A stretch of 64,000 nucleotides of DNA from an uncultured bacterium (lineage in GTDB: Bacteria; Bacillota; Clostridia; Lachnospirales; Lachnospiraceae). A model generated the notes under the pieces. The model saw only the letters and a list, made by a program, of their open reading frames with translations, ran no database searches and was not told where the DNA came from. The position numbers and the translations under genes are program-made. The DNA lies in contig CANDBT010000006.1 in the NCBI GenBank assembly GCA_947383005.1, positions 80,853-144,852 of the forward strand, in the 5' to 3' direction. Below, in pieces: positions 15,734 to 56,132 of this stretch (positions are counted from its first letter, which is position 1; every line of letters begins with the position of its first letter).

Positions 15734-15762
15734 TTAACTTGGGTTATAGATTTATCTATAAT
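15734..15762 (+). promoter_or_regulatory. Promoter of the PRTase-like gene
   Basis: TTAACT (15734-15739), 17 bases, then TATAAT (15757-15762), giving a leader of about 130 nt before the ATG at 15899. Confidence 0.6.
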
Positions 15763-15898: not shown

Positions 15899-16621
15899 AT
15901 GGGCATGGAAAAACCAAAAAAGATCTACGCGAAAGATAATCCGGAAGTGGCGCTTAAGGTTACTAAAGGTCATTTTTCTTCTGACCGTTTTCATATTAAT
16001 TATTATATTGATATGACTTCCCTGAAGATGCGGCGCAAAGAAGCGCAGGAAGTAGCGAAGGCTATGGTTTCCCGCTATGTAAGCAGGGTAAATTTGCCAT
16101 CAGGAAATATTTCGCTGGCAGGCGGGGACATGGAGCAATTGATGGCTTCCTTGTCAACCAAGGCGACGATTGACACGGTTATCTGTATGGACGGGTGCGA
16201 GGTAATTGGCGCGTATGTGGCGGAAGAGCTTTCCAACGTCGGCGTGACTACGCTGAACAGCCATCATACCAGTTATATCATCACCCCGGAGTTTGACTCC
16301 ACCGGCCAGATGGTAGTCCGTGACAATATCCGTCCGATGTTAAAGGACAAGCATGTGCTGGTCGTGCTGGCTACTGCCATGTCCGGGAGGACAATCTCCA
16401 AGAGTATCCGCTGCATCCGTTCCTATGGCGGTATTATTGAAGGAATTTCCGTAATTTTCTCGGCTGTGGATGAGATTGAAGGCTATCCGGTAAATTCTGT
16501 GTTTGGCGTATCCGACTTGCCGGATTTCAAGCTTTCTGACCCGGATCAGTGTCCGGATTGCCAGAATGGCATCAAACTGGATGCCATTGTCAACAGCTAC
16601 GGTTATACTGTATTGGATTGA
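15899..16621 (+). CDS. Phosphoribosyltransferase-fold protein (orotate PRTase-like)
   Basis: A protein of 240 residues with GAGGAGG upstream. The type I PRTase shape is suggested by the strand-loop HVLVVLATAMSGRTISKSI at the PRPP-binding position, although the usual pair of acidic residues (VDDV) is replaced by LATAM, so catalysis may be altered. FDSTGQMVVRDNIRPMLK precedes it. A C-terminal CPDCQNG pair of cysteines may bind metal and is unusual for PRTases. The N-terminal third has no motif I recognise. The gene has its own promoter and structured leader and a terminator after it. Orotate or other base salvage is possible; a regulatory role is equally open. Confidence 0.7.
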   Translation: MGMEKPKKIYAKDNPEVALKVTKGHFSSDRFHINYYIDMTSLKMRRKEAQEVAKAMVSRYVSRVNLPSGNISLAGGDMEQLMASLSTKATIDTVICMDGCEVIGAYVAEELSNVGVTTLNSHHTSYIITPEFDSTGQMVVRDNIRPMLKDKHVLVVLATAMSGRTISKSIRCIRSYGGIIEGISVIFSAVDEIEGYPVNSVFGVSDLPDFKLSDPDQCPDCQNGIKLDAIVNSYGYTVLD

Positions 16622-16681: not shown

Positions 16682-17422
16682 TTATTTGATATCTATGCCG
16701 TTTTCTATCATTTGCAAAAGTTTTGCTTCATCCTGGATTACCACAACGCCTTGTTCTTTGACGATGCAGCCGTACTTTTTGAGGACAGCTACGATTCGGG
16801 ATACAGTTACCGGATGGGTTCCCAGGTATTTGGACATTTCCAAAAAGCTCATGGTTTTGGGAAGGATTTTTTTGCCGTTTTCGATAATGTAGGAGTCCAG
16901 AAGCAGCCGGCATAAGCGGACGCTGGCATTATCCTCCAAAGCTTGCTGAAAATGGTTTAAGACCTCTTGGTAATTGACAGCGGTTGCCTGCAGTATCAGA
17001 CGGTTAAATTGTATATCTTTTTCCAAAAGCTGGCGAAAGGTAGCCCCTTGCATTTGATAAAGGACGCAGCGCGTTTTTGTCATCTGAAAAAAATGGCCGG
17101 GGGAGATGTTGCCAAGAATCTGTTTGCTGTTGATGACATCCAGCAGCAAAGTCATAAAAGAGATGATTCGTGGCGCTTTCAGATAGAGATAGACCCGTTC
17201 CTCCCCGTTTCGGGAGTAGCTCATCAGGGCTACCAGGCCGGACTCCAGATAATAGAGCGAATTAGCTTGAGATTGGTTATCCGGGGCATATATGATTCTA
17301 TTTTTGTCTACAACAATTCGTTCTCCATAAGTAAGAAAACAATCAAATATTCCGTTCTTTGTTTCCATAATTCTTTTAACCATCCTTGATATAACTGATT
17401 TTGTGTGCATTGTACATGCCAT
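16682..17422 (-). CDS. Crp/Fnr-family transcription regulator
   Basis: A protein of 246 residues. The N-terminal part is a cupin-like cyclic-nucleotide-binding fold (LYYLESGLVALMSYSRNGEE). The C-terminal winged helix has the recognition segment MSKYLGTHPVTVSRIVAVLKK. No N-terminal cluster of cysteines like that of Fnr is seen, so an iron-sulfur oxygen sensor is unlikely. The start may be a few codons further in (METKNGIF). It is divergent from the SLC13 permease gene across 278 bases that hold a perfect 12-bp palindrome at 17621-17632, a good candidate operator. I infer that it senses a metabolite linked to the sulfotransferase island. Confidence 0.88.
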   Translation of the reverse strand: MACTMHTKSVISRMVKRIMETKNGIFDCFLTYGERIVVDKNRIIYAPDNQSQANSLYYLESGLVALMSYSRNGEERVYLYLKAPRIISFMTLLLDVINSKQILGNISPGHFFQMTKTRCVLYQMQGATFRQLLEKDIQFNRLILQATAVNYQEVLNHFQQALEDNASVRLCRLLLDSYIIENGKKILPKTMSFLEMSKYLGTHPVTVSRIVAVLKKYGCIVKEQGVVVIQDEAKLLQMIENGIDIK

Positions 17423-17620: not shown

Positions 17621-17641
17621 TAACATATGTTATGCTATATT
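17621..17641 (+). promoter_or_regulatory. Palindromic operator next to an extended -10 box
   Basis: TAACATATGTTA (17621-17632) is a perfect palindrome directly before TGC-TATATT (17633-17641), an extended -10 element for the permease gene at 17701. Candidate site for the divergent Crp/Fnr-type regulator. The rest of the 17423-17700 gap is AT-rich with no gene. Confidence 0.5.
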
Positions 17642-17700
17642 ATCCAATTGAATGTTAAAATAATAACAGGACATACAAAAAAGAATGGAGGTATTTAGTT

Positions 17701-19176
17701 ATGGGAAATTCAATTGTTCCAGTCAGCAAGAGGGCGATTCATTCTTTGGTGGGTGTAGCGATCATGTTTCTGTTTCGTTTTCTGCCGTTGCCGCTTCCTG
17801 AAGTTACTCCTGTCGGTAAGGAGATTATCGGGATATTTATTGGAACCTTATATCTCTGGACAACCGTTGATCCGGTTTGGTCCAGCCTTTTGAGTATTTT
17901 TATGATTGGGATCTCCAGCTATGCGCCGATGAATCAGGTATTGTCAGCTGCCTTTGGAAACCCGGTAGTGATCCAGATGTTATTTTTAATGATTGTCATG
18001 AATGCTATGGTCTATAATAAGCTGACCGCCTATATTGGACGTTTTTTCCTGACCATGAAGATTAATAATGGGCGTCCATGGGTGTTTACGGCTATGCTGA
18101 TGGTGGGTGCGATGTTGATGGCGGCTTTTGTAGGGCCGTTTTCGCCTATCTTCCTATTTTGGCCGGTACTTTATGATATTTTTAAAGAGATTGGGATTAA
18201 AAAAGAGGAAAAATATCCCACGATTATGTTGATTTTGGTGGCTATTGCCACCTTGCTGGGCTTTCCGGTGCCGCCATACAGCGGGAATTCCCTGGCGCTG
18301 ATTGGCAATTATGCGGGGATTACGGAAAATATGGGCAACAGGGTGATGATCAATAGTGCCGCATATTTGGCTGTGGCTTTGGCATATGGTTTTATCTCTA
18401 TTGCGGCAATTGTACTGTTCTGTAAATATGTGTTGCGGCCGGATGTATCAAAGCTTAAGAATCTGGATGTAGATATGCTAAAGAAAAATCCGCTGCCTCC
18501 GCTGAATGGCAATCAGAAATTCATGGCAGTTTCTTTTGTGATTTATATTTTAACCATGCTGCTGCCAAGCATGTTTCCGAAGCTGGGCATTATGCAGTTC
18601 CTAAGCGCCAACAATTATGGCATTGCCCTGGGATATACGGCATTACTCTGCTGTATCAGCCTGGACAAAGAGAAACAGGAAATGGTACTGCCTTTTAATA
18701 AGGTGTTGAACGGGTTTGCCTGGGGGACTTTTTTCCTTTGTACGGCGGCCATACTTTTAGGAAGTGTCCTTACAAATGAATCCACGGGTATTTCCGCATT
18801 CCTGAATACTATTTTGCGTCCGATTTTCAGCAATATGTCATTAGTGGCGTTTTATATAACCTTGTTGGTAATTACATTGATTTTGACAAATATCTGCAAC
18901 AGCCTGGTAGTCGGGATGCTGATGCAGCCGGTAATTGCTTCGTTTTGCTTGTCAAGTGGAATTAATTCAGCTCCGATTACGTCGTTGATTATCATTTTTG
19001 TTTTGGCAAGCGCTTCGGTCACTCCTTCGGCATCGCCTTTTGCGGCAATGATTCATGGCAATAAGGAATGGCTGAATTCCGGGGATATTTATAAACATAC
19101 AATGATGTTTGCGGCTATTGAGCTGATTCTGGTGATTGTGGTGGGGATTCCGCTGGCAACAGCATTGATTCATTGA
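17701..19176 (+). CDS. SLC13/DASS-type anion permease, copy 1
   Basis: A protein of 491 residues with GGAGG before the ATG. It is almost wholly hydrophobic, with about 11-12 helices and internal repeats typical of the divalent anion/sodium symporter superfamily: NGRPWVFTAMLMVGAMLMAA in the first half and ASVTPSASPFAAMIHGN near the end, where family members have a substrate-binding SNT or Pro-Ser-rich hairpin. The paralogue at 24584-26059 has the same length. Known substrates of the superfamily are sulfate, dicarboxylates and citrate. The sulfotransferase gene starts 44 bases after the stop, so a sulfate, aryl sulfate or acidic phenol substrate is the obvious inference, but it is not shown by sequence. 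Confidence 0.85.
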   Translation: MGNSIVPVSKRAIHSLVGVAIMFLFRFLPLPLPEVTPVGKEIIGIFIGTLYLWTTVDPVWSSLLSIFMIGISSYAPMNQVLSAAFGNPVVIQMLFLMIVMNAMVYNKLTAYIGRFFLTMKINNGRPWVFTAMLMVGAMLMAAFVGPFSPIFLFWPVLYDIFKEIGIKKEEKYPTIMLILVAIATLLGFPVPPYSGNSLALIGNYAGITENMGNRVMINSAAYLAVALAYGFISIAAIVLFCKYVLRPDVSKLKNLDVDMLKKNPLPPLNGNQKFMAVSFVIYILTMLLPSMFPKLGIMQFLSANNYGIALGYTALLCCISLDKEKQEMVLPFNKVLNGFAWGTFFLCTAAILLGSVLTNESTGISAFLNTILRPIFSNMSLVAFYITLLVITLILTNICNSLVVGMLMQPVIASFCLSSGINSAPITSLIIIFVLASASVTPSASPFAAMIHGNKEWLNSGDIYKHTMMFAAIELILVIVVGIPLATALIH

Positions 19177-19220
19177 GTAGTTGTAGTATTTTCATATATT
19201 TTATCAAGGAGGGATTTGCC

Positions 19221-21089
19221 ATGGAAACTATTAAATATTCATTTTTACCGTCAATCCTGACCCGCCAGGCTGAGGCAGAGGAGGCGATGCTGGCAGAGTT
19301 TGAGGCTGGAAATTATACCATTGAAGAGCCGCTTGTCAAGTATAATCCTTATTTGATCAATCCGTTGGCGGCAGTTGTGCTGTTTAAGACCGAGAAGGAG
19401 ACGGCGGTGACGGTGACGGTGCTGGGCAAGGAACAGCCGCAGGGAAATATCAAACATACTTTTCCGCGGGGGACGACTCATATTCTGCCGGTGATGGGGC
19501 TGTATGCGGATTATGACAATACGGTGGAGATTGAGCTGTACCGTGGTTACAAAAAGGTCATTCATATCAAGACAGAGCCGTTGGGCAAAGATGTCCCGAA
19601 GCTGGTACATATGAACACCACAGCGGGATATCTGCGGGACCAGATTATTATTGTTACTCCGGCACTGACCCAGTTGGCAACAGGATTTGACTACCAGGGC
19701 GAGATTCGCTGGTATTTGAATATTCCGGTAGTATTTGATTTAAAGCGGCTGAAAAACGGCAATATCTGCGTGGGCACAGACCGTCTGCTGCAGATTCCCT
19801 ACTATATGTCAGGGATTTATGAGATGAGTATGGTGGGAAAGATTTATAAGGAATTTGCCATCCCGGGCGGCTATCACCATGATCAATTTGAGATGGAAGA
19901 TGGCAATTTGCTGGTTTTGACTGAAGATTTGAGAAGCGATACGGTAGAAGATATGTGTGTCCTGGTTGACCGCAATACCGGCGAAATATTAAAAACCTGG
20001 GATTATAAAAAATTCCTTGACCCGGGCTGCAGCAAATCGGGAAGCTGGACGGCTCATGACTGGTTCCACAATAACGCTGTGTGGTACGATAAAAATACGA
20101 ATTCCCTGACATTTTCCGGACGCCATGTTGACGCCATGGTGAATATTGATTTTGACAGCGGAGAGCTCAACTGGATTATTGGTGATCCGACCGGATGGCC
20201 GGAAAAATACCAGAAATATATGTTTACCCCGGTGGGAGAGGGAGATTTTGACTGGCAGTATGAACAGCATGCGAATCTGATTACTCCTGATGGCGATGTG
20301 ATGTGTTTTGACAACGGGCATTTCCGCTCCAAAATTAAAGAACATTATCGGGAAAATAAGGACAATTTTTCTCGTGGCGTCCGGTATAAGATCAACACCG
20401 ATGATATGACAATCCGGCAGGTATGGCAGTATGGAAAAGAGCGGGGGGCAGAGTTTTTCTCTAAATATATTTGTAATGTGGAATATTATAAAGAGGGACA
20501 TTATATGGTTCATTCCGGAGGTATTCAATATTACAAAGGTGTAGCGGCGGAGATCTTTGCGGCATTGATGCAGGATGATCCGGATGTATCTACCAGAAGC
20601 ATTACCGTTGAAGTGCTTGATGATCAGGTAATGCTGGAATTGGAGGTAGAAGGTAATTTCTACCGTGCAGAAAAATTGTATTTGTACCATGACAACGAAG
20701 AGCTGATATTAGGTAAGGGAAAATATTTAGGCGCTATGGGTGTGACCAAGGAATTCGATACGGATATTCCGATAGAGAGTACCGGAGAATTGCTTCCGGA
20801 GCGCTATGAGGCGCAAATTATTGAGGAGGATGACCGTTTTACTTACAAGGCTGTTTTTGAGAAAGGACAGTTGGTGATGCTGATGCTGGAGCGGGGAGAG
20901 GAGAAGCATCGCTATTATATTTCCACGGCGGCTAATAAGTTTGAGGCTCTTTGCTGCGGGACATTTATTACTAAAGATGCCCGTGCCGTCACTTTAAGTG
21001 TCAATAAGGCGGGGCTTAGCGGGGATTATGATGTGCGTGTAATTGTTGACGACGAAAAATTCGAGACGGGAATTAAGATACATTGTTAG
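19221..21089 (+). CDS. PAPS-independent arylsulfate sulfotransferase, copy 1
   Basis: A protein of 622 residues. I chose the ATG at 19221 because AAGGAGGG lies 7 bases before it; a frame from 19173 would overlap the permease. It matches the ASST beta-propeller family: YHHDQFEMEDGNLLVLTED, FHNNAVWYDKNTNSL, WQYEQHANLITPDGDVMCFD, SRGVRYKI and YMVHSGG. These hold the His, His, Arg and His that in E. coli AssT bind sulfate and form the sulfohistidine (His436 equivalent in MVHSGG). The enzyme moves sulfate from a phenyl sulfate donor to a phenol acceptor. No signal peptide is visible, unlike periplasmic AssT, so it should be cytoplasmic, which explains the adjacent permease. Eubacterium A-44 from human gut is a known ASST producer. 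Confidence 0.88.
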   Translation: METIKYSFLPSILTRQAEAEEAMLAEFEAGNYTIEEPLVKYNPYLINPLAAVVLFKTEKETAVTVTVLGKEQPQGNIKHTFPRGTTHILPVMGLYADYDNTVEIELYRGYKKVIHIKTEPLGKDVPKLVHMNTTAGYLRDQIIIVTPALTQLATGFDYQGEIRWYLNIPVVFDLKRLKNGNICVGTDRLLQIPYYMSGIYEMSMVGKIYKEFAIPGGYHHDQFEMEDGNLLVLTEDLRSDTVEDMCVLVDRNTGEILKTWDYKKFLDPGCSKSGSWTAHDWFHNNAVWYDKNTNSLTFSGRHVDAMVNIDFDSGELNWIIGDPTGWPEKYQKYMFTPVGEGDFDWQYEQHANLITPDGDVMCFDNGHFRSKIKEHYRENKDNFSRGVRYKINTDDMTIRQVWQYGKERGAEFFSKYICNVEYYKEGHYMVHSGGIQYYKGVAAEIFAALMQDDPDVSTRSITVEVLDDQVMLELEVEGNFYRAEKLYLYHDNEELILGKGKYLGAMGVTKEFDTDIPIESTGELLPERYEAQIIEEDDRFTYKAVFEKGQLVMLMLERGEEKHRYYISTAANKFEALCCGTFITKDARAVTLSVNKAGLSGDYDVRVIVDDEKFETGIKIHC

Positions 21090-21127
21090 TGAAAAAGTAA
21101 AAAACAGGCCGTTAGCCGGAAAAAAAT

Positions 21128-21162
21128 GGTGCTTGCCCAATCTTGAGCAAGCACCGTTTTTT
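21128..21162. terminator. Bidirectional terminator between the two ASST genes
   Basis: GGTGCTTGC (21128-21136) pairs with GCAAGCACC (21147-21155), flanked by A6 on the left and T6 on the right, so it serves both converging ASST transcripts. Confidence 0.9.
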
Positions 21163-21191
21163 GTATCATAGGAAAGTGTGTCCTATGATAC
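21163..21191. repeat. ATCATAGGA-family palindrome (best copy)
   Basis: GTATCATAGGA (21163-21173) pairs perfectly with TCCTATGATAC (21181-21191) across AAGTGTG. Related copies lie at 28967, 52625, 59247, 59480 and 61101. The tail AAAAACGCTCCGCG recurs at several of them. Confidence 0.8.
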
Positions 21192-21220
21192 AAAAACGCT
21201 CCGCGTGATTCTTTTTTTAA

Positions 21221-23098
21221 TTATTCGCAGGTGATCTTCACACCGGTTTCATATTTCTTATCGTCAACAATAACCCTCACATCGTAGACGCCTTTTAAGC
21301 CGGCTTTGTTGACACTGGTCTTGGTGTTGCGTTCGTCAGAATCCAGGAAGGTACCGCAACACATAGCCAGATAAGCGATGGCGGTGGTGGAGATAAAGTA
21401 TCTGTGCACTTCGTCGCCCTGCTCTAAGAGCATCATAACCATCTGGCCTTTTTCGAAGCGGGAGTAGAAGGTGAAACGGTCGATTTCTTCTACAATTCTG
21501 GCATTGCAGCTATCCGGAAGCATCTCGCCGCAGCTTTCCATAGGAATATCGGTATCGAATTCCTTGGTATGGCCCATCTTACCAAGGATTTGGCCTTTGC
21601 CCAATTCCAGGTTAATGCCGTCGCTGTACAATTTCAGCTTTTCAGCACGATAGTAGTTGCCGGGAACATCCATATCCAACATAACTTTACCATCACAAAC
21701 TTCAACCGTAATGCTGTGGAGATCGCCGCCTAAATCCTTAAGGAATGCGCCTAAAGCCTCGGCCGGAGTTCCATCCTGATTGTAGGCAATTCCGCCGGAA
21801 TGAACCATGTAATGTCCTTCATTGTAGTATTCTACATTACAGATATAGGGTGAGAAGAACTCTGCACCGCGGTCTTTACCATATTCCCATACTTGTTCAA
21901 TCGTCATTTCATCTGTGTTGATACGGTAACGGACACCTCTGGAATAGTTGTCTTTTGCAGCCAGAAGCTTGGTGTCCTGATCAACTTCTTTACAGCCGTA
22001 ATGATGGTTGTCAAAGCACATGACATCACCGTTTGGCGTAATCAGATTGGCATGTTGTTCATACTGCCAGCCAAAGTTGTTGCCGACCGGTTTGAAGAAA
22101 TATTTATCTACCATATCCTGGGGCCAGCCAGCCGGATCGCCGATAATCCAGTTCAGATCGCCGGTTTCAAAGTCGATATTGACCATGGAGTCAATATGAC
22201 GGCCGGAGAAAGTCAGGGAGTTGGTATTTTTGTCATACCATACGGCATTATTGTGGAACCAGTCTTCCTCAGACCAGCTCTTGGAGTGGCTGACGGTCTT
22301 CGGGTTAAGGAATTTCTTATAATCCCAGGTCTTTAAAATCTCACCAGTGTTGCGGTCAAGCAGGACGCACATATCTTCAACCGTCTCGCTTTCCAGATCT
22401 TCGGTCAGGCACAGGATATTGCCGTCTTCCATCTCAAATTCATCGTGATGGTAGCCGCCGGGTACCCGGAATTCTTTATAAATCTTACCGCAGGGACTGA
22501 TCTCATAGAGGCCGGACATATAATAAGGCATTTTGATCAGACGGCTGGAACCCATGATCAGATTGCCGTTCCTGAGGCGTTTGATATCGAAGATACAAGG
22601 AACATTCATATGCCAGCGGGCATCGCCTGCGTAGTCAAAAGCGGAAGAAAGAGTCTCGCCGGCCGGGGATACCATGATAACATTATCTTGCAGGTACTCC
22701 GGGGTAGTGTGCATATAATGAAGCGGATTGAAGCCATCATATACATCCGGAACATCGATAGTGATTACGTTGGACTCGCCGCGGTAAGCACGGATTTCCA
22801 CCTTATTGGAATAGTTGGAATACAGGCCCAGAACCGGGAGTACATGTCTTTTTGCTTTAGGGAATGTATGTCCCATATTGGCTTCTTTGGTCTTGCCGAG
22901 TACGGTAATGGTAACAGCGGTTTCTTTTTCCGTTTCGAAGCATACAACGGCAGTCAGAGGGCTGACTTCATACAGATTGTATTTTACCAGTGGATTCTGA
23001 ATCGTATAGCTGCCGGATTCAAGTTCTTTCAACATGGCTTCTTCGGCTTCTGCCTGGCGGTCGATCAGGTGTTTTTCAAAGATATAATTTACACTCAT
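21221..23098 (-). CDS. PAPS-independent arylsulfate sulfotransferase, copy 2
   Basis: A protein of 625 residues, GGAGGG upstream of its ATG, and clearly paralogous to the copy at 19221 over its whole length (both start with a segment reading RQAEAEEAML and end with KAGL..YDVRVIVDD). Catalytic blocks are intact: GGYHHDEFEMEDGN, FHNNAVWYDKN, WQYEQHANLITPNGDVMCF, NYSRGVRYRIN and YMVHSGGIAY. No signal peptide is visible. It is the last gene of a minus-strand operon: permease, trxB, trxA, ASST. It converges on copy 1 at a shared terminator. Two divergent copies suggest different acceptor or donor ranges. Confidence 0.88.
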   Translation of the reverse strand: MSVNYIFEKHLIDRQAEAEEAMLKELESGSYTIQNPLVKYNLYEVSPLTAVVCFETEKETAVTITVLGKTKEANMGHTFPKAKRHVLPVLGLYSNYSNKVEIRAYRGESNVITIDVPDVYDGFNPLHYMHTTPEYLQDNVIMVSPAGETLSSAFDYAGDARWHMNVPCIFDIKRLRNGNLIMGSSRLIKMPYYMSGLYEISPCGKIYKEFRVPGGYHHDEFEMEDGNILCLTEDLESETVEDMCVLLDRNTGEILKTWDYKKFLNPKTVSHSKSWSEEDWFHNNAVWYDKNTNSLTFSGRHIDSMVNIDFETGDLNWIIGDPAGWPQDMVDKYFFKPVGNNFGWQYEQHANLITPNGDVMCFDNHHYGCKEVDQDTKLLAAKDNYSRGVRYRINTDEMTIEQVWEYGKDRGAEFFSPYICNVEYYNEGHYMVHSGGIAYNQDGTPAEALGAFLKDLGGDLHSITVEVCDGKVMLDMDVPGNYYRAEKLKLYSDGINLELGKGQILGKMGHTKEFDTDIPMESCGEMLPDSCNARIVEEIDRFTFYSRFEKGQMVMMLLEQGDEVHRYFISTTAIAYLAMCCGTFLDSDERNTKTSVNKAGLKGVYDVRVIVDDKKYETGVKITCE

Positions 23099-23122
23099 GC
23101 TTTGTTTCCCTCCATATAATAT

Positions 23123-23434
23123 TTAAATATTTTCTTTAACCATATTGACAATAACCGGTTTCTGCTGCAGGCCCTGCAGGCGTTTTACTTCGGTACCATC
23201 TTTTAAAAGTACCAGAGTGGGATAACCGGCTACCCCGTATTCGGCAGTCAGTTCTTTATTTTGGTCAAAATCCACTTTTAAGATGGTGAGATCATCGCCG
23301 AATTCTTTTTCCACATCTTTTAAAACGAAACCCAGCATTTTGCAGGGACCGCAGGTGGTGGAAAAGAAATCGGCGAGCACGAGGCCCTTGTCGGCCAGCT
23401 CCTTAAATTCTGCACTGTTTACTTCTTTTAACAT
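23123..23434 (-). CDS. trxA: Thioredoxin
   Basis: A protein of 103 residues with AAAGGAGGT before the ATG. The active site is STTCGPCKML: the CGPC pair is standard but the usual preceding Trp is Thr. GVAGYPTLVLLKDG holds the cis-Pro loop. It reduces protein disulfides with electrons from thioredoxin reductase. It lies between trxB (66-base gap) and ASST copy 2 (24-base gap), in one transcript. In uropathogenic E. coli the ASST gene is paired with the disulfide-forming DsbL/DsbI; here a reducing pair occupies that place. Confidence 0.93.
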   Translation of the reverse strand: MLKEVNSAEFKELADKGLVLADFFSTTCGPCKMLGFVLKDVEKEFGDDLTILKVDFDQNKELTAEYGVAGYPTLVLLKDGTEVKRLQGLQQKPVIVNMVKENI

Positions 23435-23500
23435 ATTGTACCTCCTTTAAATGATGATCAATCGTAACAGTTCAAACGACAAATCAAAACCCTTTTCGTG

Positions 23501-24421
23501 TTACAGGTTCTTTACATAATGGGATGCTTCCTGGGCTGCGATGGCTCCGTCTGCACAGGCGGTAATAACCTGGCGCAGGTTTTTGGTTACGCAGTCGCCG
23601 GCGCCGAAAATGCCAGGGATCTTCGTTACCATTCGGTCGTTGACTTCTACATAACCCATTTGATTTAATACACCCAGATCTTTAAAGCATTCGGTAGTGG
23701 GAGTGAGTCCGATGTATTCGAAAACACCGTCACAGCTTACGGTTTTTTCTTCACCGGTCTTGGTGGAACGGAAACGGACTCCTTCCAGGCGGGTATCGCC
23801 GACAAATTCCAGAATGTCCTGGAACGGATAGATGGTTACTTTGTCCATGGCACGCAGTTTGTCACAGGCAATAGGATCGGCAGTAAGATCGAACATTGTG
23901 ACAATAGTCAGGGATTTGACGATGCCAGCCAGGAAAATTGATTCTTCTACGGCAGAGTTGCCGCCGCCGATTACGACTACATCCTTGTCACGGTATTGTG
24001 CTCCGTCACAGATGGCGCACCAGCTTATGCCATTGCCGCGAAATTTATCCTCACCGGTTACGTGCAGACATCGGGGACGAGTACCGGTAGCGAGAATCAC
24101 GGAATTGGCAGTAAATTCTTTGCCGTCTTCCTCGCAGCGGACAACCTTTTCCGTTCCATTGTCCACGACTTCTTTGACCGTGGCGTAGTCAAAGGTAATC
24201 GTATCGAACTGCTGTGTGTGTTCAAACATCTGATAAGCAAGTTCGGCGCCGTTGACGGTGCCTACTCCGGTGTAATTTTGGATTTCATTTGTGTTGATGA
24301 TCTGTCCGCCGGGAGCCAGCTTGTCAAGCATCAGGACGTTCATGTCTGCCCTGGCCCCATAAATGGCAGCAGTCATGCCGGCTGGCCCGGCGCCGATGAT
24401 GATCAGATCGTATTGTGCCAT
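23501..24421 (-). CDS. trxB: Thioredoxin reductase
   Basis: A protein of 306 residues, normal for the low-molecular-weight class. The FAD site GAGPAGMTAAIYGARA is at the N terminus, the redox pair is WCAICDGA, the NADPH loop is GGGNSAVEESIFLAG, and GIFGAGDCVTKNLRQV ends the FAD region. It passes electrons from NADPH to thioredoxin. AAGGAGG precedes the ATG, and a TATAAT at 24479-24474 (minus) could be a private promoter, so trxB-trxA-ASST may be expressed apart from the permease. Whether this is the cell's main trxB or one dedicated to the island cannot be told here. Confidence 0.95.
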   Translation of the reverse strand: MAQYDLIIIGAGPAGMTAAIYGARADMNVLMLDKLAPGGQIINTNEIQNYTGVGTVNGAELAYQMFEHTQQFDTITFDYATVKEVVDNGTEKVVRCEEDGKEFTANSVILATGTRPRCLHVTGEDKFRGNGISWCAICDGAQYRDKDVVVIGGGNSAVEESIFLAGIVKSLTIVTMFDLTADPIACDKLRAMDKVTIYPFQDILEFVGDTRLEGVRFRSTKTGEEKTVSCDGVFEYIGLTPTTECFKDLGVLNQMGYVEVNDRMVTKIPGIFGAGDCVTKNLRQVITACADGAIAAQEASHYVKNL

Positions 24422-24531
24422 GGTAATAACCTCCTTATATTGCTTGTGTACTTTTAATTATTTGTGTATCTTAATTATAGATGTCTTTGGTAAAAAACGC
24501 TATGGAAAAATGAATGGACTTGATAGTATTT

Positions 24532-24557
24532 GGGCCAATCAGCGAAGTGATTGGCCC
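24532..24557 (-). other. Hairpin between permease copy 2 and trxB
   Basis: GGGCCAATCA (24532-24541) pairs with TGATTGGCCC (24548-24557) across GCGAAG. It has no T tract, so it is more likely a processing or stability element than a full terminator. Confidence 0.5.
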
Positions 24558-24583
24558 GGAGACGGATTTTCTGCATTCAGTGA

Positions 24584-26059
24584 TTAAGCTCCGCAGAGTA
24601 TAGTGGCTACCGGGATTCCGATAATCAACATCAATACCAGCTCGATGAGAACCATCGGCAGGGTATAGGAATATACATATTTGGTGGGAACCCATTCCTT
24701 ATTGCTGTGCAGAAGCGCCGCAAAGGGTGAAGCCGCCGGAGTAACGCAGGCTGACAACAGTACAAACTGGATCATCAGGGTCACGATGGGCCGGGGATCG
24801 GCGCCCGCCTGGGTACAATAAGTAATGATAATGGGCTGCAGCAACATACCGATTACCAAGCTGTTGCAAAGGTTGGTAAGGATAGCGCCCAAAAGCAGCA
24901 GCAGGATAATAAATACGGTCGGGGACATGCCCTGGAAAATCGGGGTAAGGATCACACGCAGGAAAGCGGAGATACCGGTTGCCTGGTTTGTCAGCACGCC
25001 GCCTAAAAGGATAGCGGCAACGATAATAAAGTATGCACCCCAGCTATTGCCTTCCAGAACTTTGGCGATATCCAGTACTGGTTCACCCTTAATACGGATG
25101 GCAGCCAGGCAGGCAGCAATAAACATAGCCAAACCGTATACACAGCCTTTCAGGTATCCCATGAAAGGCAGGGTGGGAACCAATGAAGGGATCATCATGC
25201 CCAGGATTACCAGGACAAAACCCAGGATATACAGCTTCTGACTCAGGGAAAGGGGAGGAAGCGGGTTGCGGTTCAGGCTTTCCACATCATAATCCTTCAG
25301 CTTGGAAGCATCCGGACGCAGGACAAATTTGGCAAACAGAACTACGGCTGTAATCAGAACCATACCCAGGATAATGGCCGTGAGCAGATATCCGCCGCTG
25401 TTGACCACAACGGGCCCGCCAGGCATCTCGGCGCTGATTTTTTCGAAGTTGCTGAGGAGCGCCAAACCGTTTTGGGCAAACGGAGCCATCGGGAAACCAA
25501 TCAGGGAAGCAATCACAACTAAAGTGATGGCAACTCTTGGGAACGGATCGCCTTTTTTGTAACCAACTTCGTCAAAAACTCCATACAAAACGGGCCACAT
25601 GACAAAGATGGGTGTAAAAGCGTTGACAAAACCGGCGATAAAATAGCATCCCATACAGATGACACCCATCAGCAGCCAGGGCTTACCGTTGGTGAACTTC
25701 CTGGTCAGGAAGAAACGTCCCATGTAGCTGGTGATTTTGTAGTAGGCCAGGCCGCCTGACATGATCTGCATGAACAATACCTGGCAAACGACCGGGGAAC
25801 CGAAAGCTTCCCCAATAACTCCAGACATATTGCTGTAGGAGGAAAAGCCAACCATAGCAATGGACATAATGCTGCCCCATATCGGATCGACAAAAGTCCA
25901 CAGATACAAGGTCCCCAGGAATATACCCAGGATCTCCATACCGACCGGAGTGACCTCCGGGAGGCTGAGCGGCAGGAACCGGAAAAATAACATGATACCT
26001 ACACCGACAGCGGAGTGAATTAGAGTGGCTTGTTCTTTTTTGTTTGCTGTACTAGCCAT
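24584..26059 (-). CDS. SLC13/DASS-type anion permease, copy 2
   Basis: A protein of 491 residues, paralogous to the permease at 17701 along its length (shared PEVTPVG...GIFLGTLYLWT start, NGKPWLLMGV, SACVTPAASPFAALLHSN near the end). About 11-12 helices are expected. It is the first gene of the minus-strand operon that continues with trxB, trxA and ASST copy 2. Its upstream region has AACATAACATAGGCTATAT on the minus strand, partly shared with the promoter of copy 1, so both may answer to the same Crp/Fnr-type regulator. The substrate is unknown; an anion connected with sulfotransfer is the simplest inference. Confidence 0.85.
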   Translation of the reverse strand: MASTANKKEQATLIHSAVGVGIMLFFRFLPLSLPEVTPVGMEILGIFLGTLYLWTFVDPIWGSIMSIAMVGFSSYSNMSGVIGEAFGSPVVCQVLFMQIMSGGLAYYKITSYMGRFFLTRKFTNGKPWLLMGVICMGCYFIAGFVNAFTPIFVMWPVLYGVFDEVGYKKGDPFPRVAITLVVIASLIGFPMAPFAQNGLALLSNFEKISAEMPGGPVVVNSGGYLLTAIILGMVLITAVVLFAKFVLRPDASKLKDYDVESLNRNPLPPLSLSQKLYILGFVLVILGMMIPSLVPTLPFMGYLKGCVYGLAMFIAACLAAIRIKGEPVLDIAKVLEGNSWGAYFIIVAAILLGGVLTNQATGISAFLRVILTPIFQGMSPTVFIILLLLLGAILTNLCNSLVIGMLLQPIIITYCTQAGADPRPIVTLMIQFVLLSACVTPAASPFAALLHSNKEWVPTKYVYSYTLPMVLIELVLMLIIGIPVATILCGA

Positions 26060-26141: not shown

Positions 26142-26163
26142 TAGCCTATGTTATGTTTTGCAA
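26142..26163 (-). promoter_or_regulatory. Candidate operator/promoter of permease copy 2
   Basis: Minus strand: TTGCAAAACATAACATA followed by GGCTATAT. It shares AACATA and GCTATAT, in similar order, with the region before permease copy 1. The -35 and -10 spacing is not standard, as expected for an activated promoter. Confidence 0.3.
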
Positions 26164-26735: not shown

Positions 26736-26835
26736 TGTCTGTGACCAAAAAGGGGTAGTTGTCTGCAGAAACACCCTAATCATTTGGCGAATAAGTATGC
26801 TCGTGGGTATAAGATGGCAAAAGGAGGGTATGGAT

Positions 26836-28146
26836 ATGGAAACAAATGAAGTTGCAAAAAAGGAACTGAAGCTGGGAGGGCTTCCCTGGTGGCAGGCGAT
26901 TGTGGCGATTGTGCTCTGTGCGATTCCCATGTACTGGGGGATCCAGTCCAGCAGTATGGCGGGAACCCTGTGTTCGTGTTTCGCCCTGGCTGTAGTATTT
27001 AATGAGATTGGCGAGCGTTTGCCTATCTGGAACAATTACATCGGCGGCGGGCTTTTGATGGCCTTTTTCGGGGTGGCGGTCCTGAAATATTTCGGGCTGA
27101 TTCCGGAGGAGGCAATTACCAACATCAACAGCTTTGTGTCAGAGGATGCCAATTTTTTGGAGTTTTTTATTGTGATTCTGATTGTGGGTTCGGTGCTGGC
27201 CTTGGACCGCGATATTCTGCTGCGCTCCTTCGGCGGATATATTCCGGCGATTTTAGGCGGCCTGGTGGTGGCAAGTATCCTGGGTGTGGTCACGGGACTG
27301 ATTTTCGGGGTGTCCCCGGCAGACTCCATCATCAAGTACGTGCTTCCCATCATGGGCGGCGGCAATGGCGCGGGAGCGGTTCCCTTAAGTAATATTTATG
27401 AGACCGTGACCGGCGACGCGGCGGCCAATTACTATGGCTTTGCCATTATTATTCTGACCATTGCCAACATTTTTTCTATTATTGGCTCAGCGCTTTTAAA
27501 TACCATTGGCCAGAAGTACCCGGCTCTGACAGGAGACAAGAAAACCCTTCTGCGCAAGGGGGGAAGCATTACCCGGGATGATGCAAAGGTCAAAACTACC
27601 ATAGAAGATATGATGGGGGCGCTTCTGCTGGCGTTTGCCTGCTTCGCTGTGGGACGGATCATGAATAAGAAAATTTTGCCCACCATCGCGGGGGCGGCGA
27701 TCCATCAGTATGCATATCTGATTATTTTTGTGGTGATACTGGCAGCCACCGGCCTGATCCCGGCCAATGTACGGGCAGGGGCCAAGCGTCTGCAGAGCTT
27801 TATGTCAGGCGGCATGGGCATTATCATCATGGTCGGCATGGGCGCTGATTTTGATATTGCGGAGCTGTTCTCGGCCATGACTCCGGGAAATGTGCTCATG
27901 GCCCTGATGATTGTAGTCGGCGCTATCATCGGCGCAGGCGGAATCGGCTATCTGGTGGGCTTTTATCCGGTGGACTCGGCTCTCACAGCCGGACTTTGTA
28001 TGGCAAACCGCGGCGGAAACGGGGATCTGGCCTGCCTGGGCGCTGCAGACCGTATGGATCTGATTGCTTATGCACAGCTTTCCTCCCGTCTGGGTGGCGG
28101 AATCGTGCTGATTATCGCTTCCTTTATCTTCTCATTCTGGTTATAA
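26836..28146 (+). CDS. 2-hydroxycarboxylate transporter (CitS/CimH family)
   Basis: A protein of 436 residues from the ATG at 26836, which has AAGGAGGG 7 bases before it; longer starts to 26716 run through a structured leader. The 2-HCT hallmark Gly-rich re-entrant loops are present in both halves: PIMGGGNGAGAVPLSNIYE and CMANRGGNGDLACLGAADRM. The family imports citrate, malate or lactate-type 2-hydroxy acids with sodium or protons. The following genes (aldolase and four-carbon acid kinase) suggest uptake of a hydroxy acid such as tartrate, threonate or malate for catabolism. Its stop is 3 bases from the next gene. Confidence 0.93.
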   Translation: METNEVAKKELKLGGLPWWQAIVAIVLCAIPMYWGIQSSSMAGTLCSCFALAVVFNEIGERLPIWNNYIGGGLLMAFFGVAVLKYFGLIPEEAITNINSFVSEDANFLEFFIVILIVGSVLALDRDILLRSFGGYIPAILGGLVVASILGVVTGLIFGVSPADSIIKYVLPIMGGGNGAGAVPLSNIYETVTGDAAANYYGFAIIILTIANIFSIIGSALLNTIGQKYPALTGDKKTLLRKGGSITRDDAKVKTTIEDMMGALLLAFACFAVGRIMNKKILPTIAGAAIHQYAYLIIFVVILAATGLIPANVRAGAKRLQSFMSGGMGIIIMVGMGADFDIAELFSAMTPGNVLMALMIVVGAIIGAGGIGYLVGFYPVDSALTAGLCMANRGGNGDLACLGAADRMDLIAYAQLSSRLGGGIVLIIASFIFSFWL

Positions 28147-54533: not shown

Positions 54534-56132
54534 ATGGGAATGATACAGGCGGTTTTAGCCGACGATGAAGGGATAATTTTAAAAGGACTGAAGAAACTGA
54601 TTGACTGGGAGAGATTGGGCATAGAAATTGTGGGGGAAGCGGGAAACGGAGAAGAAGCATTAAAGCTGATTCGGGAGAAAAAACCGCAATTGATTGTATC
54701 GGATATTGCCATGCCGGGGATTTCCGGTCTGGAAATGCTGCGTGAAATTGGCAGTCAGGGGTTAAATACCAAGGTTATTTTTGTCAGCGGTTATCAGGAG
54801 TTTTCCTATGCTAAGGATGCGGTGCGCTACGGGGCTGTGGATTATCTGCTGAAGCCGGTGGAGAAAGAGGAATTGGAAACGGCAGTCTGCAAAGCAGTTT
54901 CCCTGATTGATGATCAGAGCAGGCTCAGCATTTTGAACTTTGCGGAAAATGAGGATAAGGTGCATCGGATTTTTCAAAAAATTGCCGGTAACGAGGGATA
55001 TGCCAGAGAAGATTTGTACGAACAGTTTTCCAGCCTGAATATTTCTATAGAAGGAAAATCCATGGTAGGGGCGGCCTTTCGCTTGTATACATTAAAGAAA
55101 GGGGAAGGTAATGCCCGCATGCAGGAATTGATAAAATTTTCTGCCGCTAATAAAATACAAAAGAAACTGGAAGATTCCGGGTGGGGATTTGTGGTAAAAA
55201 AAGAAGTTAACACATGTTATATCATTTTTTTGCTCGAAAAAGGCTATGACCGGAATATTTTGGAGAGCCGGGTGCAAATCCTTTCCGACGAAGTGAAAGA
55301 TCAGAAAAGCCTGGCAGTTAAGGCGGGTGTGGGAGAGCAGGTTGAGGATATAGCATCTTTGCAGTTGGCTTATAAGACTGCCAGGTTTGCTTTGGAGCTG
55401 TACTATTTTACGGAAGAGGACATCATTTGGTATGAGGATGTGCAAAAGGAGTTTCATGAATCCTTTGAAAGTTATCATGAATGTTTTCAAAAGCTGGAAC
55501 ATGCTTTTTTAAACCGTCAGAAATCCGTCGCGGAGGAAATCCGCCAGGTGCTGTCATTAATTAAAAATCTGCATTTTGGCAATCGGTTTGCTGCAATAAA
55601 CCGCTGTAATCTGATGTTGTCGGAGCTTACCCAGGAGCTTTGTGCCAATTACCTTTTGGATCGCAATTGGATCAGGGAAGGAGAAGCGTGTATGGAACAG
55701 ATGCGGCTGACACCGACGTATCGTCAGACTTGTCAGGTTGTCAGCGCGTTTTTGGAACGGGTGCACGAGGAGGTCCGCCAGGGGGGAAGCGGGGAATACA
55801 ACGAAGCCGTACGCATTCGGCGGTATATTGACGAGCATTTTCAGGAAAATCTGTCTTTAGAATCAATGGCTCAGATGGCAGGGATGAATCCCTATTATTT
55901 CAGCAGTTATTTTAAAAAGAATATGGGGATGAATTTCAAAACTTATCTCACGGAAGTGAGGATGCGCAAGGCGGCTCAGCTTTTGCTTTATACCGACTGC
56001 AAGGCATATGAGGTGGCGGAACAGGTGGGCTACCGGAATGTGCGGCAGTTTAATGAAAATTTTAGAGGAAAATACGGTAAAAGTACCAATGAGTACAGAA
56101 AAGAGCATAAAAGAGAAGAAAAAAAGAGCTGA
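54534..56132 (+). CDS. AraC-type response regulator (YesN-like)
   Basis: A protein of 532 residues. The N-terminal receiver has VLADDEGIIL with the acidic pocket, LIVSDIAMPGISG with the phospho-acceptor Asp, and VDYLLKPVE with the conserved Lys. The C-terminal AraC DNA-binding domain reads NLSLESMAQMAGMNPYYFSS then YTDCKAYEVAEQVGYRNV. A long helical linker lies between, as in YesN. It responds to the sensor kinase at 57376. The binding-protein gene starts inside its last 44 bases, so the two are translationally linked. Confidence 0.95.
   Translation: MGMIQAVLADDEGIILKGLKKLIDWERLGIEIVGEAGNGEEALKLIREKKPQLIVSDIAMPGISGLEMLREIGSQGLNTKVIFVSGYQEFSYAKDAVRYGAVDYLLKPVEKEELETAVCKAVSLIDDQSRLSILNFAENEDKVHRIFQKIAGNEGYAREDLYEQFSSLNISIEGKSMVGAAFRLYTLKKGEGNARMQELIKFSAANKIQKKLEDSGWGFVVKKEVNTCYIIFLLEKGYDRNILESRVQILSDEVKDQKSLAVKAGVGEQVEDIASLQLAYKTARFALELYYFTEEDIIWYEDVQKEFHESFESYHECFQKLEHAFLNRQKSVAEEIRQVLSLIKNLHFGNRFAAINRCNLMLSELTQELCANYLLDRNWIREGEACMEQMRLTPTYRQTCQVVSAFLERVHEEVRQGGSGEYNEAVRIRRYIDEHFQENLSLESMAQMAGMNPYYFSSYFKKNMGMNFKTYLTEVRMRKAAQLLLYTDCKAYEVAEQVGYRNVRQFNENFRGKYGKSTNEYRKEHKREEKKS

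Follow-up and report, generated by a model that had tools for sequence, protein, structure and literature searches.

A permease, arylsulfotransferase and thioredoxin module of a Lachnospiraceae bacterium with a possible role in the reductive cleavage of aryl sulfates

The stretch analysed here is a window of 64,000 nucleotides from an uncultured bacterium of the Lachnospiraceae (assembly GCA_947383005.1, contig CANDBT010000006.1, positions 80,853 to 144,852 of the forward strand), in which two arylsulfotransferase (ASST) genes and two permease genes converge on a common terminator. In one of the two operons, a thioredoxin reductase gene (trxB) and a thioredoxin gene (trxA) lie between the permease and the ASST gene. 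There appears to be a slightly better than even chance that the permease, the ASST and the TrxA/TrxB pair import aryl (or similar) sulfate esters and cleave them reductively to phenol and sulfite. The DASS permease would bring the ester into the cell, where the catalytic histidine of the cytoplasmic ASST would accept the sulfuryl group and the phenol would be released. From the histidine the group could pass to a thiol, either the first TrxA cysteine or an ASST cysteine such as Cys580; a second thiol would then expel sulfite and leave a disulfide, to be re-reduced by TrxB with NAD(P)H. AsrABC would take sulfite on to sulfide; its genes stand, in the genome of this bacterium (the source genome), in another operon that follows a third ASST gene (ASST3) and has the same kind of operator. 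Bacteria lacking a sulfite reductase would probably export the sulfite. The ester would replace 3'-phosphoadenosine 5'-phosphosulfate or adenosine 5'-phosphosulfate (PAPS/APS) in sulfate reduction, and therefore no ATP would be spent on activation, while up to eight electrons could be disposed of. From the gene content, the conserved gene order, an operator-like site and the lack of ATP sulfurylase and of CysD above cut-off where these were searched, we infer sulfite as the probable product and thioredoxin as the probable direct reductant, together with the likely substrate and the thiol that may act.

Membership of the window proteins in the ASST family is clear, and the new chemistry would follow from their gene context. 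ASSTa (622 aa, 19221..21089, + strand) and ASSTb (625 aa, 21221..23098, - strand) are 63% identical and match PF05935 with 352 and 332 bits, respectively, and the two proteins also contain the N-terminal Ig-like domain PF17425 (75 and 66 bits; cut-off 24.2 for both families). In the alignment, His252, His356, Asn358, Arg374 and His436 of EcAST correspond to His218, His282, Asn284, Arg300 and His349 of ASSTb and are kept across the rows; the sixth EcAST residue, Thr501, aligns with Ile419 and is not kept. By family match and retained catalytic histidines, Asn and Arg, both proteins belong to the PAPS-independent ASST class, as the earlier note on this DNA had held. Ping-pong chemistry through a sulfo-histidine is established for EcAST (review PMC13426309). 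The cluster II PAPS-independent ASTs (DhAST, DsAST of Desulfosporosinus sp. HMP52 and HefAST of Hungatella effluvii) are of the same family, and the loci of H. effluvii (L050, 79%) and Desulfosporosinus sp. HMP52 (L086, 52%) were found as direct relatives of ASSTb in a contig scan. ASTs of these two organisms are reported to be active on p-nitrophenyl sulfate (review PMC13426309), in H. effluvii for one of several ASSTs. Activity on aryl sulfates, reported only for these ASTs of relatives' organisms, may by analogy extend to the window genes.

A cytoplasmic location of the window ASSTs, also proposed in the earlier note, is likely. A crude hydropathy test, run with its own threshold and no positive control on 91 ASST rows that contained the two window ASSTs, flagged a signal-like N-terminus in none of them, and ASSTa has no signal-like stretch at its N-terminus. 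A signal peptide revealed by a corrected start was rejected on this result and because the ASSTb frame is open for only ~8 codons upstream of its start. For ASSTa, a TTG start (638 aa) was rejected in favour of the ATG at 19221, because the strong ribosome site AAGGAGGG precedes the ATG. E. coli AssT is periplasmic, has a disulfide and works with the oxidising DsbL/DsbI, whereas the window ASSTs lack a signal-like N-terminus and are accompanied by a reducing TrxA/TrxB; hydropathy and the Pfam/NCBIfam assignment of the partners thus place them outside the AssT-DsbL/DsbI system.

Cys580, in the C-terminal domain of ASSTb, is a candidate for the accepting thiol, as is TrxA. It forms part of the motif A(M/L)CxGTF..D.R, occurs in 105 of the 106 rows of an ASST alignment in which some genes appear twice, having come from two sources, and sits in the lowest-confidence stretch of the predicted ASSTb model. 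The C-terminal domain modelled alone (predicted local distance difference test score 76) gave weak Ig-like matches, none at E <= 0.001. A further residue, Cys420, adjoins an active-site position in the sequence and is a cysteine in 75 of 76 Trx-linked rows of the same alignment, duplicates included, versus 21 of 27 unlinked ones.

The dedicated TrxA (23123..23434, - strand; PF00085, 83 bits) has CGPC within the motif TTCGPC in place of WCGPC and scores 87.9 bits against the NCBIfam equivalog, below the cut-off of 96.8. TrxB (23501..24421, - strand) matches Pyr_redox_2 and, at 319.9 bits, falls below the TIGR01292 cut-off of 343.45; its CAIC site reads WCAICD, a form present in 43 of the 57 TrxB-like proteins of the loci described below. 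Two more thioredoxins are encoded in the source genome, both with ordinary DWCGPC sites. A scan of genome contigs with ASSTb, which favours near relatives, gave 67 loci. Trx linkage in them was called by phmmer searches with the window proteins, counting genes on the same strand within 2.6 kb. Both trxA- and trxB-like genes stand beside ASST in 49 of these loci and one Trx gene only in three (L084, L092 and L093), so that the conserved neighbourhood in relatives that the earlier note asked for does exist.

Because the ASSTb scan favours near relatives, a wider phylum sample was drawn. Among 398 genomes, 14 matched at E <= 1e-80, including the source genome, and 11 of the 13 others provided 18 loci; partial matches (G328 and G491) were left out. 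A Trx gene adjoins ASST or lies one gene away in seven of the 18 loci, with both genes in L136, L137, L146, L147, L148 and L149 and TrxA alone in L139. The coupling takes three architectures, namely permease-trxB-trxA-ASST, ASST-trxB-trxA and ASST followed by a TrxA with CHVC and a fusion of thioredoxin reductase and thioredoxin. Two Trx systems thus occur beside ASST, one consisting of an xTCGPC TrxA (NCGPC in L094) with TrxB and the other of a CH[VI]C thioredoxin with the reductase-thioredoxin fusion. Seven changes are needed to place the three states of the neighbourhood on a quick tree built from 91 ASSTs. A further ASST of H. hathewayi (G046, L103) has a trxB-like gene directly upstream, with no trxA found beside it.

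The idea of thioredoxin as a stoichiometric reductant, and a co-occurrence test with sulfite reductase, were set down before the asr genes surfaced. Clustering of neighbours revealed three families after ASST, which in Hungatella hathewayi DSM 13479 (L049) match the NCBIfam models of AsrA, AsrB and AsrC, each with a score above the cut-off. This bacterium has in one row permease, trxB, trxA, ASST, ASST, asrA, asrB, asrC, cysG-N and hemC, preceded by a divergent regulator; cysG-N and hemC follow asr genes of this type, in L041 together with hemA. Within the fetched stretches, asrA or asrC was found in 20 of the 49 loci with both trx genes versus 0 of the 18 other loci. In the source genome, ASST3 (contig C38) lies directly before asrA, asrB and asrC (AsrA and AsrC over the NCBIfam cut-offs, AsrB by phmmer), with a hemC-cobA-hemD-type protein encoded a little beyond; the genes upstream, for trigger factor, an M18 peptidase and D-Tyr-tRNA deacylase, are of housekeeping type. 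ASST3 is the ortholog of the second ASST in Hungatella-type operons, with 86% identity to that of L053. The source genome has a split version of the Hungatella-type operon. The L064 genome carries asrABC ~6 kb away from the permease, beyond the regulator (L127).

Across 150 genomes of the family, the source genome among them, PF05935 occurs in 28 and asrC over cut-off in 30. Five genomes have a long-form ASST (>330 bits) and seven a divergent asrC (<400 bits), these classes having been set after the score gaps were seen and without an asrC tree; the divergent asrC scores 361-376 bits (355-387 in the genome search of 26 further loci) versus 470-574 for the others. Its seven genomes are all five long-form ASST genomes plus G148 and G149, that is, 5/5 versus 2/145 (p 3.5e-8), or 5/5 versus 1/23 when compared with genomes having another ASST (p 6e-5), both uncorrected for relatedness. 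In all five long-form genomes the divergent asrC lies <= 4 kb from ASST on the same contig, while in the five genomes that combine another ASST with an above-cut-off asrC (G028, G067, G133, G136 and G148) the two never share a contig. A whole-genome asrC search covered 26 further loci, 22 Trx-linked and four unlinked, leaving out the Trx-linked loci without asr in the stretch L037, L045, L066, L081-L083, L091 and L096. asrC was found in the genomes of 16 of the 22 Trx-linked loci (L057 has it also in the locus) and of one of the four unlinked loci (L058); L055, also unlinked, gave no NIR_SIR match. The divergent asrABC loci L125 (G149) and L126 (G148) had no ASST match in their 19-kb stretches, and another sulfite source is possible there.

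Searches for sulfate activation were made in genomes several of which are draft or metagenome assemblies. ATP sulfurylase (PF01747) was found in 0 of the seven genomes searched, five of them long-form; CysD (TIGR02039) exceeded its cut-off in 0 of 35, with weak matches in six (best 25.5 versus 396.6 bits), and AprA exceeded its cut-off in 0 of seven, with two weak matches. In the source genome there was no match to PF01747, CysD or AprA, and the single PF01507 match is a 318-aa protein unlike CysH or CysD by eye, so that no PAPS/APS reductase system was found there. No PF01507 match is listed for G015, and G059 is absent among the genomes with a match. Given the absence of ATP sulfurylase and of CysD over cut-off, the sulfite for AsrABC should come from an organic source, with the limit that taurine, isethionate and thiosulfate routes were not searched for. 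Sulfite handling also appears beside ASST where asrC is missing: no NIR_SIR match was found for L076 and Hutsoniella sourekii (L077), in both of which a PF03601/YeiH-family gene directly follows ASST. Within 8 kb, L078 has a small siroheme sulfite reductase-like gene, a disulfide-reductase-like gene and, on the opposite strand, a relative of YeiH. In L141, from the wider sample, a TauE/SafE gene (PF01925) stands directly before ASST and is itself preceded by asrA/asrB-like genes. YeiH of Salmonella is described as the main sulfite-resistance factor, with transport not proven there (PMC12880088).

The palindrome TAAC-N4-GTTA looks like a conserved operator. A perfect copy, TAACATATGTTA (17621..17632, + strand), lies 80 bp upstream of permease 1, its first base being the start that the earlier note gave for the region, and a copy with one mismatch, in ATAACATAGGCTAT (26142..26153, - strand), lies 94 bp upstream of permease 2. 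Exact copies <= 220 bp upstream were found for 28 of 55 permease genes versus nine of 535 other genes, in related loci that are not independent and with a motif picked from palindromes of the same upstream regions where it was counted. The ASST3-asrABC operon, not used in the choice of the motif, has the exact site ATAACATAGGTTAT at -129, which differs by a single base from the site of permease 2. The 14-base form of the operator has ten copies in the source genome versus 13 for a control; therefore its position, not its number, is the evidence. A third exact copy in the window, at 55208, is inside an open reading frame, and none was found in six loci of the permease-regulator-ASST type without trx. 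The candidate regulator is a CRP/FNR-family protein (16682..17422, - strand; PF13545 and PF00027), divergent from permease 1, with relatives in 32 clustered loci. Its single sequence returned nothing useful against solved structures; a CprK-like phenol sensor would be one idea for its role.

PERMa (17701..19176, + strand) and PERMb (24584..26059, - strand) are DASS/IT-type permeases by a profile of their relatives. They have 491 aa each, as the earlier note stated, and are 52% identical. Its assignment of both to SLC13 holds at the profile level only: a profile of 18 relatives matches VcINDY/DASS structures (E 1e-14), whereas single-sequence Pfam gave CitMHS for one permease and no family for the other. 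Among the 18 relatives, PF00939 was found in three and PF03600 in 16. PERMb as a single sequence gave nothing useful against solved structures, and the relation to solved anion transporters is only distant. The proposal that the permease is the partner of the ASST is supported.

It is unlikely, in our estimate, that the Trx pair merely keeps a cytoplasmic ASST reduced while the module moves sulfuryl groups between phenols, as in the reading of the earlier note. The near-invariant Cys580 and the other common cysteines would suit such a role, as would the in vitro sulfotransfer that review PMC13426309 reports for H. effluvii and Desulfosporosinus sp. HMP52 enzymes. However, with two other WCGPC thioredoxins in the source genome maintenance needs no dedicated pair, and it leaves unexplained both the YeiH and TauE neighbours and why ASST is accompanied by either of two distinct Trx systems. 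Since the asrABC, siroheme and sulfite-handling neighbours, the operator common with ASST3-asrABC and the lack of Sat and CysD fit an electron donor better, maintenance as the role of the pair is probably wrong. Clearly less probable again is that the ASST hydrolyses or transfers to give sulfate or sulfated acceptors, with asrABC and Trx co-clustering only via sulfur or redox stress under one regulator. A common operator alone can group loosely related genes, and PMC9016944 discusses AsrABC as the final step of a taurine pathway. However, a sulfate product would be a dead end where activation is lacking (no Sat in 7/7, no CysD over cut-off in 35/35), and only the long-form ASST class shows the link: the divergent asrC lies within 4 kb of an ASST in 5/5 such genomes and is present in 1/23 genomes with another ASST, and of the latter with any asrC over cut-off, 0/5 have both genes on one contig. 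We give a marginally lower probability to another activated sulfuryl compound as the real substrate (sugar sulfate, sulfamate, thiosulfate or S-sulfocysteine), which would leave the reductive logic unchanged. HefAST sulfates N-acetylglucosamine well, DhAST works with numerous acceptors and, as donors, also with a few N-linked compounds (review PMC13426309), and the distant relation of the permease to solved anion transporters agrees with such a substrate; most of the family donors listed are nevertheless aryl sulfates (Table 1 of the same review), and the His/Arg/Asn active site of EcAST is kept.

Several points weigh against reductive cleavage of aryl sulfates as favoured here, among them the choice of the operator motif and the unsearched sulfite routes given above. 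Its favourability with poorly activated phenol sulfates is uncertain. No Trx gene stands beside ASST in 15 of the 67 loci (short contigs among them) and in 11 of the 18 loci of the wider sample, where L139 has TrxA without TrxB. Cys420 is weakened as an essential thiol, being Ser in L060 despite trx and asr. The exact operator was found before asrA in 0 of 12 further asr loci (L122 has no sequence on that side, and L128 is internal to an operon), no asrC was found in six of the 22 Trx-linked genomes searched (L076-L079, L086 and L094), four of which hold another NIR_SIR protein, and G148 and G149 have the divergent asrC without a long-form ASST. PF01507 proteins are present in G046 (nine matches) and G033 (three matches). 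ASSTs of this class use OH acceptors in vitro, and the main text of the review contains neither 'thioredoxin' nor 'sulfite' (PMC13426309).

The chemistry proposed for the module has a parallel in CysH, which converts an activated sulfate ester and reduced thioredoxin to sulfite and oxidised thioredoxin. ASST is a protein unrelated to PAPS/APS reductase, and unlike the CysH route the module would use a pre-formed ester, need no ATP sulfurylase and carry the sulfuryl group first on a histidine. Cluster II ASTs are treated as catalysts of sulfotransfer to OH and NH (review PMC13426309), whereas reductive cleavage is proposed here. PAPS-free sulfotransfer by gut anaerobes, which the earlier note inferred, is not new, having been known since Eubacterium A-44 and including the H. 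effluvii ASTs (same review). The review (July 2026) names EcAST as the sole solved AST, yet structures of the Streptomyces sulfotransferase Cpz4 (PDB 9kf4 and 9kf6) were released in November 2025. AsrABC accompanies the module as its downstream partner in 20 of 67 loci and is also such a partner in the source genome, whereas the sulfite source discussed in PMC9016944 and PMC13232883 is sulfate or taurine; the main texts of these two gut-sulfur papers contain none of 'arylsulf', 'aryl sulf' and 'sulfate ester'. Among the matches listed from the open-licence literature, none was found that connects arylsulfotransferase, Trx and sulfite reductase in the way proposed here, and PMC10866078 is the only one to contain both 'arylsulfotransferase' and 'sulfite reductase'. 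As far as searches of that literature reach, a reductive aryl-sulfate module appears not to have been described before.

Host livers sulfate phenols, steroids and drugs for excretion. If the reductive reading is true, gut anaerobes would reverse this detoxification, liberating the phenol or drug, and would be a further source of H2S, providing a route from detoxified phenol sulfates to H2S in gut-type Lachnospiraceae. It would supply sulfite to asrABC where no sulfate activation was found, and a reason why many Firmicutes keep cytoplasmic PAPS-free 'sulfotransferases'. More tentatively, and a little short of an even chance, the ASST and the Trx pair could form an aryl-sulfate reductase in an ATP-free 'aryl-sulfate respiration', running from sulfo-His to thiol to sulfite and on to AsrABC or export. 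In that case, gut Lachnospiraceae and Erysipelotrichia would use host phenol sulfates as electron acceptors, producing free phenols and H2S together.

All module genes were found in the window at the positions described, and the pairing of two ASSTs across one terminator and the placing of trxB and trxA between permease and ASST stand as the earlier note gave them. The convergent intergenic region contains two strong hairpins (z = -7.4), one being the terminator hairpin between the two operons (21128..21155; by fold and terminator-like match) and the other a second stem-loop (21161..21193; by fold) with arms GTATCATAGGA. The terminator-like match has 12 pairs; such matches overall are not commoner than in shuffled sequences.

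Other ASST-type proteins were also observed. A second, shorter one (PF05935/PF14269, ~480-520 aa) lies beside the long ASST in several Firmicutes, identified by Pfam in L137 and L101 and as cluster F19 in L087, L089, L090, L093 and L094. Open frames of 1168 and 1506 aa with two ASST matches each are present in G015 (contig C64, L111) and G136 (contig C300, L113). A fourth ASST of the source genome (L006, 65-1939 on contig C45, which starts 64 bp before it) has a long tree branch and is followed by a phosphoenolpyruvate (PEP)-hydrolase-like gene (PF09370), with no Trx or asr gene in the 9 kb seen. Beyond the regulator, an orotate-phosphoribosyltransferase-like gene (15899..16621, + strand; NCBIfam PRK02277, 25 bits, cut-off 115) recurs beside the module in 17 loci including that of the window, six of them with an exact operator-like site; in the window the palindrome TAACTTGGGTTA (15735..15746, + strand) lies 164 bp upstream of it. 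On the other side, the module is adjoined by a 2HCT-family transporter gene (26758-28146, + strand) close to the citrate symporter CitS (522.5 bits, cut-off 600).

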